Assembly: GCF_018219815.1 (NCBI RefSeq)
Contig: NZ_JADMKU010000019.1
Span: 1-64,000 of the forward strand
DNA: 64,000 nt
Origin: Thalassovita aquimarina
GTDB taxonomy: Bacteria > Pseudomonadota > Alphaproteobacteria > Rhodobacterales > Rhodobacteraceae
Direction of reading: 5' to 3'
The notes beneath the pieces are model-generated. The model saw only the letters and a list, made by a program, of their open reading frames with translations. It was not told where the DNA came from and made no database searches. Positions 60,281 to 63,971 of this stretch are shown here, piece by piece. Both the position numbers and the translations under genes were made by a program. Each line of letters starts with the position of its first letter. Position 1 is the stretch's first letter.

Positions 60281-62248
60281 ATGGTTTCGAACAGCAAAGT
60301 TTTGACGGTTTCCTACGGCACGTTTTCGTGCACCTTGGAAGGGTTCGACGATTCCTTCGAGACGATGAAGGCGATCGCGGAATATTTCCGCGACCTGGCC
60401 GCGGATGATCGTTATTTCGGGGCCGAACCGCCGACGCCAGATGCCGACATGCTTGCCCGGATCGCCGAACGCGAAATCGAACGCCGTGTGCAGGCCCGCG
60501 CGGAAAGCGGTGCAATCGTTCTGACCGCCGCAGCCAGCGCCCCTGCCCCTGCCGAACAAGCCCCTGCAGAAGAAGAACCGGAAACCGCCGAAACCGCGCC
60601 TGAACCGGTTGCCGAGGAAGCCCCCCTCGCGCCCGAAATCGAAGAACCCGCTGCCCCCGCTGCCGGGGAACCGGCAGAAACCGTTTCCGGACCGGAAACC
60701 GCCGAGGCCGGGGAATCCGCCGCCGAAGATCTGCCCGTGGTGGAAACCCAGCCTGACGCCGTGGCCGAACCGGAAATTGAAACCCAGGCCGCGCCGGCCC
60801 CCGATGCTGCCGTCAGTCTGCTCGATGACAGCAGTGTCGCGGCCAAGCTCGACCGCATCCGCGCGGTCGTTTCGCGCGGCAGGCCAGCATCGGAGGAACC
60901 GGATTACACCGAAGATGAGCATGCCGAGGATTTCCTGTCCGAAGCCGTCGAACAGATCGAGGACGTGATCGAAGCCGACGATCAGGCCGAACTGGACGCC
61001 GAGGAGGTGGAGGAAGAAAACTTCTCCTCGATCATCGCAACCGTGCAGAAAGCCAAGGCGGAACCCGCCGAAAAGGCTTCGGAAGAGGCAGAGGACAGCC
61101 TGAACGGCGCTTTGGAGCAAGCCGCCGAACTGGAGACCAGCGAGGAAGCCGAAGCCGAAGCCGAAGCCGAAGCCGAAGCCGAAGCCGAAGCCGAAGCCGA
61201 AGCCGAAGCCGAAGCCGAAGCCGAAGCCGAAGAAGCGCGTGTCGAGACCGAAGAAGAGGTCAAGCCCGTGGTGGAACCGGTGCGCCCGGTCCGTCCTGTC
61301 CGTCCGGTGCGCGTGCTGAAGATGAAGCGTGCCGATTTCGAAGCGGCGCTGGAAACCGGCCAGCTGGAAGAGGAACAGGGCGAAGCCCCCGAAACCTCGC
61401 TGAGCCCCGAAGACGAGGCCGACCTGCTGCGCGAACTGGCCGAGGTCGAAGCGGAATTCGCCAAGGATGCGGAAGCGGACGAAAATGAGGACGAGCTTCG
61501 CTCGATCTTCGACGCGGGCGAAGAAGAAACCGTCTCGCAGGAACCGGGCCGCGCCCAGCTGGAAGAACCCGATCTGTCGCGCCTCATGGCCAAGACCCAG
61601 TCCGAAATGGACAGCCCCGAAGGCGCCAACCGGCGCAAGGCCATCGCCCATCTACGCGCCGCGGTCGAGGCGACCCGCGCCGAAACAGAAGCGGGCGGCG
61701 GTCTGAAGCGGGTTGCAGATAATGCTGACGCGTTCCGCGACGACCTCAACAGCGTGGTGCGCCCGCACCACCCGACCGGGTCGAAGAAAACCTCGGTTCG
61801 CCCCGACCCGGTCCGTCCGGCGCCTCTCAAGCTGGTGGCGTCGCAGCGGATCGATACCGCGCCCGAAACCGCCGCGCCGCAACCCGCCATTCAGGTGAAA
61901 CCCCGCCGGGTGCATCTGAACCGGGACACCAGGCATTCCACGCGGGATGCTGCGGATCAGTACAGCAACTTCCCCGAATTCGCCGAAGCGAAAGGCGCCG
62001 AAACGCTGTCCGATCTTCTGGAAGCGGCGGCGGCTTACCTGTCCTATGTGGAAGGCCATGAACAGTTTTCGCGGCCGCAGCTGATGAACAAGGCGCGCCA
62101 GGTCGAGGACCTGAGCTTCAGCCGCGAAGACGGGCTGCGCTCCTTCGGGCAGCTGCTGCGCGAAGGCAAGATCGAGAAACTGCAGGGCGGTCGCTTCACG
62201 GTGTCCGATCAGATCGGCTTCAAGCCCGAAAACCGCGCTGCCGGCTAA
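60281..62248 (+). CDS. Long acidic protein with Glu-Ala repeat, unknown function
   Basis: A 655-residue protein with no signal peptide. A conserved-looking N-terminal block (about 1-65: KVLTVSYGTFSCTLEGFDDS, AIAEYFRDLAADDRYFG) is followed by ~500 residues of acidic, Pro/Ala/Glu-rich, presumably disordered sequence. This includes a Glu-Ala tract from residue 289 encoded by tandem GAAGCC, and a PVRPVRPVRP stretch near 340. A compact C-terminal domain (about 575-650: LLEAAAAYLSYVEGHEQFSR, FSREDGLRSFGQLLREGKIE) closes it. Two folded ends joined by a long charged linker suggest a scaffold; I know no function. The start is preceded by AAAGGCG. Confidence 0.85.
   Translation: MVSNSKVLTVSYGTFSCTLEGFDDSFETMKAIAEYFRDLAADDRYFGAEPPTPDADMLARIAEREIERRVQARAESGAIVLTAAASAPAPAEQAPAEEEPETAETAPEPVAEEAPLAPEIEEPAAPAAGEPAETVSGPETAEAGESAAEDLPVVETQPDAVAEPEIETQAAPAPDAAVSLLDDSSVAAKLDRIRAVVSRGRPASEEPDYTEDEHAEDFLSEAVEQIEDVIEADDQAELDAEEVEEENFSSIIATVQKAKAEPAEKASEEAEDSLNGALEQAAELETSEEAEAEAEAEAEAEAEAEAEAEAEAEAEAEEARVETEEEVKPVVEPVRPVRPVRPVRVLKMKRADFEAALETGQLEEEQGEAPETSLSPEDEADLLRELAEVEAEFAKDAEADENEDELRSIFDAGEEETVSQEPGRAQLEEPDLSRLMAKTQSEMDSPEGANRRKAIAHLRAAVEATRAETEAGGGLKRVADNADAFRDDLNSVVRPHHPTGSKKTSVRPDPVRPAPLKLVASQRIDTAPETAAPQPAIQVKPRRVHLNRDTRHSTRDAADQYSNFPEFAEAKGAETLSDLLEAAAAYLSYVEGHEQFSRPQLMNKARQVEDLSFSREDGLRSFGQLLREGKIEKLQGGRFTVSDQIGFKPENRAAG
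61145..61228 (+). repeat. (GAAGCC)14 tandem hexanucleotide repeat
   Basis: Fourteen perfect copies of GAAGCC (84 bases) lie in frame in the long acidic protein gene and encode a Glu-Ala repeat. Copy-number change by slippage would lengthen or shorten the product by two residues per unit without shifting the frame. Confidence 0.97.
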
Positions 62249-62290: not shown

Positions 62291-63271
62291 TCAGCCTGCC
62301 GCGTGGAAATGCAATCGCGCGCGTCCGCTGCGCTTGGAAAAATAGAGCGCCGCATCGGCATCCGCCATCATCCTGGCCGGATCCGGCTTGCCGTAATCCA
62401 CCGATCGCGCAATCCCGATGCTGGCCGAGACATGACAGGGCTTGCCCTTGAACCGGATCGGCTGTTCCAGCCGGGACAACAGGCGACCGGCCACCGACTG
62501 TAATTTCCCCCTGTCCGTCATGCCCTGGAAAATCAGCAGGAATTCGTCGCCACCGATGCGGAACGCCGTGTCCTCCTCGCGCGTCAGACCGGCCATGATC
62601 CGCGCCACCTCTTGCAGCACATGATCGCCAGCGGCATGGCCCATCGTGTCGTTGATGGCCTTGAAGTGATCCAGGTCCAGGTGCATCAGTGAAAATTCGA
62701 TCCCGTTTTCGACCAAGCGGGGCAGGATGTTGTTCATCGCGCGGCGGTTCTTCAGCCCGGTCAACGTATCGGTGAATGCCCGTTCCTCCGCCGCGATCTT
62801 GGCCCCCTGCAGCCGCGAATTCAGACGTTGGCTGGCATCCATCGCGGCGGTTTTCGCCTCGATCAGATAAAGCATGTCGACGGTCAGGTCGGTCGCGGCA
62901 AAATCTTTCGCGCTGAGTGCGTAATCGCTCACCCCATCCTGAACCGGCATGCGGAAGGACAGGTTCAGGACCGACGCCGCCCCCAACGGGGCCAGAACGC
63001 CATTCAGCGCCGTTTTCGGCGGTTGGGCAAACCGCAACTGCAGCTTGCCCCCCGCCTGCGCCCGGAGCGCCGACACCCGATCGATAGCGCGCGGCCGCAG
63101 CACTTCGAACAGGTCGAAAAGGCAAACACCACGAAGGTCGCGGTCTGGCCGCAGCTTGGCCAGGGTGGGGCCGGCATGGGTGATCCGGCCCTTGTGATCG
63201 ATCTGCAGATGCATCGGCATCAACGTGTCCAACAGGGGCGTCACGTCCGTCCCTTGCGCGATACAGGTCAT
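62291..63271 (-). CDS. HNOBA-GGDEF diguanylate cyclase
   Basis: A 326-residue cytoplasmic cyclase making c-di-GMP. The N-terminal ~110 residues (LMPMHLQIDHKGRITHAGPT, FDLFEVLRPRAI) match the HNOBA (H-NOX-associated, PAS-like) domain. A helical linker (about 130-165) leads to a GGDEF domain with TLTGLKNRRAM and the intact RIGGDEF signature (240-244). An RxxD inhibitory site (REED, 231-234) lies five residues before GGDEF, so product inhibition is likely. The ATG overlaps the stop of the H-NOX-like gene by 4 bases, indicating that the two proteins act as a sensor-output pair. Confidence 0.93.
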   Translation of the reverse strand: MTCIAQGTDVTPLLDTLMPMHLQIDHKGRITHAGPTLAKLRPDRDLRGVCLFDLFEVLRPRAIDRVSALRAQAGGKLQLRFAQPPKTALNGVLAPLGAASVLNLSFRMPVQDGVSDYALSAKDFAATDLTVDMLYLIEAKTAAMDASQRLNSRLQGAKIAAEERAFTDTLTGLKNRRAMNNILPRLVENGIEFSLMHLDLDHFKAINDTMGHAAGDHVLQEVARIMAGLTREEDTAFRIGGDEFLLIFQGMTDRGKLQSVAGRLLSRLEQPIRFKGKPCHVSASIGIARSVDYGKPDPARMMADADAALYFSKRSGRARLHFHAAG

Positions 63272-63852
63272 AGCCCGGCGCCCAGTTCGAAACTGCGCCC
63301 CTCGGCGAAGGTGCCTTCCACCAAGGAGATTTTGATCAGGTCGCGGCCCGGGCCTTTTTCCACGAAATCCAGACACACCAGCGCCCCGTAATCATCGGCC
63401 ATGGTGCGCAGTATCCCCAGCAAGGCACAGGCGAAACAGGGATGGTCGGCCTTGCACATTAGACAGAACAGATCCCGCCCGCACTCCCGCAGCTCCAGTT
63501 GCGGAAGTTCCAGGTCGGGCACCGCCATGCGCGCCCGATCCGGCAGATCCTCGAGCGATTGCAGGAATTCCTCGAACGTCGCGCCGCCGAAACGCAACAG
63601 GCGACGTACTGCCTCGGTATTGGGGTGGGACACCAGATAGGTGCCGATATCTTCACACAGTTCTTCCTGCGGTTTCGACAGGGACGCGCCGAGCGCGGCC
63701 AGCACATCGTCGGTCAGCGTATCGTCATAGGTCAGCATTGCCTCGAACCGGGGCGGATCAATCCCGGCGTCGCGGGCGACCGCCAGCCAACAGTCCTCGC
63801 CATAGGTATCGCGCACAAAACACTGGATCGCGCGGTTGATGAGTCCGTGCAT
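63268..63852 (-). CDS. H-NOX (HNOB)-like protein lacking the heme ligand
   Basis: A 194-residue soluble protein starting MHGLINRAIQCFVRDTYG, the typical H-NOX N-terminus, with LRFGGATFEEFLQSLEDL before the proximal-ligand site. Where H-NOX proteins have the heme-binding His (in an L-H-D/E-like context), this one has Pro104 (LPDRAR). The YxSxR propionate motif is not recognisable; instead C124, C130, C133, H137, C139 and C142 cluster within 19 residues. Classic H-NOX proteins sense NO or O2 through heme and control partner cyclases or kinases. Here heme binding is doubtful and a metal or redox cysteine site is inferred. It is coupled to the HNOBA-GGDEF gene by a 4-base overlap. Confidence 0.85.
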   Translation of the reverse strand: MHGLINRAIQCFVRDTYGEDCWLAVARDAGIDPPRFEAMLTYDDTLTDDVLAALGASLSKPQEELCEDIGTYLVSHPNTEAVRRLLRFGGATFEEFLQSLEDLPDRARMAVPDLELPQLELRECGRDLFCLMCKADHPCFACALLGILRTMADDYGALVCLDFVEKGPGRDLIKISLVEGTFAEGRSFELGAGL

Positions 63853-63971
63853 TCGCCAAACATCCCACATCTTCGTTGCGACAGTCTGGTCGATGAGGGG
63901 TTAACAAAGCAAAAACGCCGTCTGGGCATCGCTGTTGGTTGCAACCGGGGCACGCCGCCGCGGCGAAGGCT

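Follow-up and report, generated by a model that had tools for sequence, protein, structure and literature searches.

The locus described here raises the question of what an H-NOX protein does for its partner diguanylate cyclase when the place of the heme-ligating His is occupied by Pro. The gene lies in a 64,000-nucleotide stretch of DNA from Thalassovita aquimarina (family Rhodobacteraceae), called the window below. In the initial annotation, the protein was read as an H-NOX fold that had exchanged heme for a metal or thiol-based sensor, made of a cluster of Cys and His residues, driving c-di-GMP synthesis. The features of the locus are summarized in Table 1.

Table 1. Features of the H-NOX/diguanylate cyclase locus, in window positions
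Feature	Position	Strand	Basis or remark
H-NOX (HNOB) protein, probable Group 5 type, 194 amino acids	63268..63852 (stop included)	-	PF07700, phmmer, AlphaFold2/Foldseek
Pro104 codon, where canonical H-NOX has the heme-ligating proximal His	63541..63543	-	gap-free alignment to Nostoc H-NOX
Cys/His-rich stretch C124-C130-C133-H137-C139-C142	63427..63483	-	sequence, alignment, conservation counts
Partner diguanylate cyclase, 326 amino acids, weak N-terminal HNOBA and GGDEF	62291..63271	-	PF00990, PF07701
GGDEF active-site motif of the partner	62540..62554	-	sequence
RxxD inhibitory-site motif (REED) of the partner	62570-62581	-	sequence
CtrA-like box region, about 50 to 60 bases before the start codon	63900..63915	-	TTTT-N7-TTAAC, only the TTAAC half kept

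The open reading frame of the H-NOX gene begins with the conserved start MHGLIN, and a second in-frame ATG is located 18 bases upstream (63870). The family assignment was borne out by the profile search (PF07700 (HNOB), 77.3 bits; cut-off 25.5), and the protein is the sole HNOB match in its own genome at E 0.001. The best sequence and structure matches were the Nostoc H-NOX (Alr2278) and the H-NOX domain of the sGC beta subunit, the Nostoc protein being the closest sequence match in the PDB (phmmer; E 1.4e-18, 28% identity). An AlphaFold2 model (pLDDT 84.1, pTM 0.80) was predicted from an input alignment of 44 rows, namely the window protein and 43 of the 47 related named loci. When this model was searched with Foldseek, the top matches were Nostoc H-NOX structures (TM 0.81, E 4.8e-13), and all of the 50 PDB matches listed were H-NOX or guanylate cyclase chains. 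The predicted model and the alignment indicate that the window protein has the H-NOX fold (helical distal half, four-stranded sheet), as had been proposed.

The reading of the missing heme residues was also confirmed. In the phmmer alignment, no gap interrupts the region of the proximal ligand (NLDNLHARVGLSFPQLRPP in the window protein over SLEDLPDRARMAVPDLELP in Nostoc H-NOX), and the His stands opposite Pro104. Because there is no gap, a His elsewhere on the proximal helix was ruled out as the ligand. Opposite Y, S and R of the YxSxR motif of Nostoc H-NOX stand C133, A135 and H137. In the comparison set of 29 canonical H-NOX proteins, the proximal position is His in 29/29, and the residues of the motif are nearly invariant (Y in 29/29, S in 28/29, R in 28/29). 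Note that a joint alignment with the relatives of the window protein has a gap inside the motif, leaving only three canonical proteins complete by column.

The initial annotation had taken a version with no heme ligand and with this cluster to be new. As regards the ligand, this is not the case, since its absence has already been published for an entire group. The H-NOX of P. denitrificans, like that of R. sphaeroides, is described as being without the proximal His (PMC5588039), an observation credited there to Iyer 2003 and to Plate & Marletta 2013. The large 'Group 5' of Lee-Lopez & Yukl 2022, built from the P. denitrificans protein, is characterized as having the proximal His in <10% of its members, mostly Pro in its place, and no conserved Cys (PMC8738867); the same paper likewise asks how Group 5 proteins sense anything. 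The window protein appears to be of the Group 5 (Pden_3719) type by shared features and gene order, having Pro104 at the proximal position and an adjoining GGDEF gene, the latter being taken as typical of Group 5 from the case of P. denitrificans, in which the H-NOX gene overlaps the GGDEF gene. It differs from the published group in its Cys residues, five of which fall within residues 118-146 as a set unique among the 191 proteins described below.

To place these features in the family, we searched genomes at several taxonomic levels. Of 295 genomes searched within the family, 221 had an HNOB match, and the H-NOX/cyclase gene pair occurs in most of the Rhodobacteraceae genomes sampled. Among the matches listed, 28 exceeded 100 bits: 26 were canonical (His and YxSxR), L028 was of the window's class, and L029 was left out because it matched neither query. 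The weaker matches were mostly of the window's class; the two weaker matches examined as L033 and L198 were canonical or nearly so. At the level of the order, 163/196 genomes contained a match to the window protein (E 0.001), in a few cases a weak one of canonical type. When 289 genomes sampled from the class were searched with a profile of the clade, seven matched. Three of the matches were clade members from the same family; the remaining four, one of which also came from this family, showed His and YxSxR in the printed alignments. Because the clade members found at class level all belong to the same family, the clade looks like a derived branch of a single family.

The counts given below refer to 191 distinct Group 5-type proteins, which comprise the window protein, 44 proteins from named loci and 146 obtained by searching the family, the genus and the order. 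This set was counted after removal of 19 duplicates and 4 partial proteins, and 10 further low scorers were assigned to the canonical set. Three intermediate scorers (L002, L003 and L009) were placed in the canonical set partly for their His and YxSxR, so that the trait itself had some part in dividing the classes. The sample is non-random, as the first 41 loci were mostly better HNOB scorers and only part of the 221 positive genomes was taken in.

No complete YxSxR was found in the 191 proteins. Position 104 is Pro in 147, His in 15 and another residue in 29 (A5, R5, Q5, S4, N3, G3, T2, E1 and K1); examples of the His-bearing members are L119, L057, L086 and L038. Pro104 is the commonest residue at a position that varies across the clade, so that it is probably not a new ligand. 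When columns 104 and 130-142 were left out of a quick tree, 12 changes between His and non-His were needed, three of them forced by supported branches; the state has switched at least three times on such branches within one clade. Since the His/Pro state changes several times while the partner remains the same, paired proteins from this clade offer a direct test of the need for heme. Trp at position 135, the place of Ser in YxSxR, is present in 8/15 His104 members versus 2/147 Pro members (Fisher p 3e-8). We dropped this association, because the tree yields only three independent pairs on supported branches, with no trend.

It is unlikely that the window protein works as an ordinary heme sensor with a His ligand. 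The protein could still bind heme through another axial ligand, for example H76 or a Cys, and sense NO as the D. shibae protein does. This reading would have to hold in a clade in which 176/191 proteins have a non-His residue at position 104, the proximal region is gap-free, and the conserved neighbors of position 104 are L103 and R106. Leu and Arg are not usual heme ligands. As for H76, the position is His in 148/191. An H103G mutant of H-NOX has been solved in the Fe(II)CO state (2kil, according to its title), which favors heme retention, as does the D. shibae H-NOX (Dshi_2815, with the GGDEF partner Dgc1, Dshi_2814). The latter belongs to the clade by sequence and gene order, has no YxSxR and appears as a heme NO sensor in a table of PMC8846402, so that loss of YxSxR alone does not exclude heme. 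However, it keeps the proximal His (DDLHDRAR) and has W135. It is the one member with reported heme/NO biochemistry that we found, and it is among the 8% keeping His; its mechanism should therefore not simply be transferred to the Pro majority. Taking both sides together, we regard heme binding through a substitute ligand as unlikely.

What the clade has in common is found elsewhere in the protein. Eight residues (E67, D68, R83, R84, A110, R149, D154 and Y155) are conserved in at least 90% of the 191 proteins and differ from the residues of all three references, namely Nostoc H-NOX, L002 and L003, the last two being the nearest canonical proteins. S99 behaves likewise but is Ser in 11/26 of the other canonical proteins, and D153, R87 and R106 are equally conserved, each being common to one of the three references. 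At position 73, the Trp of these references is replaced by Leu in 188/191, and G70 and G146 are present in 191/191. The C-terminal G-R-x-F-x-L is also kept in the clade, whereas almost every canonical row has a gap there; the Nostoc row ended before this region and is uninformative. This signature spans window protein positions 67-68, 83-84, 149, 153-156 and 185-190 in members with or without His. Because 14 or all 15 of the His-bearing members retain the named clade-specific residues and position 104 is variable, the clade is, as judged from these alignments, better defined by its charged signature than by Pro104.

These conserved positions also bear on whether the H-NOX is merely decaying, that is, relaxed, with no sensory role and retained only through its coupling to the cyclase gene. 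Such a history would fit the variability of residue 104. It would also fit the three of nine genus genomes (the window's own counted) that gave no H-NOX match, G295, G299 and G300, from which it follows that the gene pair may be lost. A few relatives are partial or frame-broken: in L216 (G036:C34:227479-227944), the HNOB match consists of two overlapping pieces, perhaps from a broken gene, and in G271 there is one stop inside the match. Against decay, many positions are at least 95% conserved across the 191 proteins, and dN/dS of the H-NOX gene among congeners is 0.16-0.28 (dS 1.15-1.36), showing that purifying selection acts on it between these species. In P. denitrificans, moreover, an hnoX mutant is reported to be biofilm-deficient (PMC5588039), a defect repeated in PMC12582929. 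By analogy with this phenotype, which is seen despite the missing His, function without the His seems possible. We consider decay very improbable.

The partner gene was confirmed to be retained, as had been noted. Its GGDEF domain scored 139.6 bits (PF00990), with both the GGDEF and the RxxD motif intact. The start codon of the partner gene and the stop codon of the H-NOX gene overlap as ATGA. The N-terminal HNOBA part is weak (PF07701, 21.9 bits; below the 23.4 cut-off); among five homologous partners tested, three passed this cut-off and two missed it. A homologous cyclase lies directly downstream in 190/190 loci other than the window, with a median implied gap of -3 bases. Of these partners, 189/190 have an intact GGDEF motif, and RxxD is present in 186/189.

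The gene pair is treated as a nitric oxide sensor in the literature on D. shibae, R. capsulatus and P. denitrificans (PMC7232146, PMC5588039). In D. shibae, inhibition of Dgc1 by NO-bound H-NOX is reported (PMC8846402, PMC7232146). In P. denitrificans, a dgcAB mutant overproduces biofilm, the opposite of the hnoX phenotype, and Kumar & Spiro suggest that DgcA is inhibited by H-NOX, still modelling the His-less protein as NO-responsive (PMC5588039). The reading that we favor, with moderate confidence, is that the window protein, an H-NOX in which canonical heme binding is absent, regulates the diguanylate cyclase of its operon by contact, most likely as an inhibitor. It would represent a widespread H-NOX-fold regulator of Rhodobacteraceae with neither proximal His nor YxSxR, presumably heme-free. 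Direct contact would be made with the cyclase, whose gene overlaps that of the H-NOX in one operon, and the sign of the effect, most likely inhibition, is borrowed from the other species. The conserved charged set (E67, D68, R83, R84, R87, R106, R149, D153 and D154) with Y155, the hinge glycines G70 and G146 and the GRxFxL tail would probably form the interface with the cyclase or a pocket for another ligand.

The remaining question is the Cys/His-rich stretch, whose residues (C124, C130, C133, H137, C139 and C142) are present as first described. The window protein has nine Cys, the highest number among the 191 including itself (mean 2.1; next 7). In 100,000 shuffles of its sequence with the nine Cys kept, five Cys fell within 19 residues in 2.1%, and two CxxC motifs started 4-12 residues apart in 0.35%. 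The shuffling result marks an oddity in Cys density, not a function.

Conservation in the clade had been set beforehand as the test of the cluster as a sensor replacing heme. The counts by position (again including the window) are 4 for C124, 6 for C130, 114 for C133, 2 for C139 and 2 for C142 among the 191 proteins; His137 is found in 20, C160 in 2, and C66 in the window protein alone. C130 and C133 occur together in 4/191, C124, C130 and C133 together only in the window protein and the congener L124, and C139 with C142 only in the window protein. Within residues 118-146, no Cys is found in 60 proteins, one in 103, two in 26, three in one (L124) and five in one (the window protein). As a feature of the clade, the cluster was rejected by these counts, the full set being present in the window protein alone, and because it is not conserved in the clade, its reading as a sensor is unsupported.

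The congeners give the same picture, the window species itself being represented by one genome. L124, the nearest relative (73% identical), keeps C124, C130 and C133 and has Q137, G139 and H142, while C66, C139, C142 and C160 of the window protein correspond to M, G, H and I. None of C124, C130, C133, C139 and C142 is present in the congeners L125-L127 (two of the three have H137), and the most distant congener, L128, has only C133 of the five. What is new here is a set of Cys nearly private to one species, the complete cluster being found in one genome; no description of a Cys cluster in Group 5 was found in the literature searched, mostly at listing level. On the reading favored above, this set is a lineage-specific addition, perhaps without function, and it carries a caution, being striking in one sequence and incomplete in the nearest relative.

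There are nevertheless known H-NOX proteins that respond through Cys. In V. cholerae, C149 acts at the start of helix G, five residues before the hinge Gly (PMC7108781), and the Caulobacter H-NOX is reported to be activated by oxidation of a zinc-ligand Cys (PMC12329717). These proteins share with the window protein the H-NOX family and Cys near the start of helix G, and they respond to oxidants in vitro, that of V. cholerae in the heme-free form. By analogy, the cluster in this species could be a zinc, Fe-S or disulfide redox site replacing heme, in which C130-x2-C133, C139-x2-C142 and H137 would sense oxidants and shift the Gly hinge. Besides the unusual density of Cys, the placement of C139-x2-C142 at the start of helix G in the predicted model, near the invariant Gly146 and in the region where V. 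cholerae C149 acts, would agree with this, and the unique C66 aligns with Nostoc L67, which is Trp in the mutant chain 3tff.

However, the positions appear to be unlike those of the known zinc site: the zinc-ligating residues in S. oneidensis are Cys139, Cys164 and Cys172 (PMC7108781), apparently at places differing from the window Cys, and C139, C142 and C160, when simply counted from the hinge Gly, are off the V. cholerae offsets given in the same paper. C130 and C133 are three apart on one predicted strand (strand 2), so that their side chains should face opposite sides. The zinc/Cys groups are also described as conserving the proximal His (PMC8738867) and acting on a histidine kinase. Together with the absence of C139 and C142 from the 73% identical congener and of most or all of the five Cys from the other four, these points make a redox site in place of heme unlikely.

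A combined history is also conceivable, in which Rhodobacteraceae re-purposed a heme gas sensor for another input, a change visible in the charged signature of the clade, and the window species then gained a thiol or metal centre in the vacated propionate/hinge region (C130, C133, C139, C142, H137, perhaps C66 and C160). We hold this to be unlikely; if true, an H-NOX without a heme ligand would control c-di-GMP by sensing redox state or a metal.

The upstream regions gave information on the control of the gene pair. We examined 120 bases before the start codon in 190 loci, the window included (one of the 191 was too short). TTRR-N7-TTAA was found in 77/190 regions, compared with 1.4 in shuffles, and the boxes, of the TTGG-N7-TTAA type, mostly begin 56-65 bases before the start codon. 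The same pattern occurred in 1/190 on the other strand, and other spacings were rare (N6 in 8, with a shuffle maximum of 6; N8 in 2; N9 in 1). A perfect TTAA-N7-TTAA was found in none of these 190 regions, and a separate search for an FNR-type site upstream gave 0/190. D. shibae is among the 77 and the window is not: its TTAAC half is at 63900-63904, with TTTT in place of the first half-site. The CtrA consensus for D. shibae is given as TTAA-N7-TTAAC (PMC4046655), and the box in the relatives, including D. shibae, is in line with the reported control of D. shibae hnox by CtrA and quorum sensing (PMC7232146, PMC6473078). The lack of a perfect box in all regions and of the first half-site in the window speaks against CtrA control; on balance, the gene probably belongs to the CtrA regulon.

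We also surveyed NO-making nitrite reductases in 54 genomes (NirS, PF02239 cytochrome d1 matches at E <1e-90; NirK, TIGR02376 above the cut-off). In the window genome, there was no PF02239 match and no NirK above the cut-off. With one Gln104 genome (G131) excluded and the Pro genomes hand-picked, not random, a nitrite reductase was present in 8/13 His genomes versus 16/40 Pro genomes (Fisher p 0.21), or 17/40 (p 0.34) when a short cytochrome d1 fragment in G256 was counted. These genes do not distinguish His from Pro genomes and speak neither for nor against a loss of NO sensing. Separately, GCCGAA repeats near 61160-61232 of the window encode a long Ala-Glu run in a 655-amino acid acidic protein (60281-62248), whose gene adjoins that of the cyclase.
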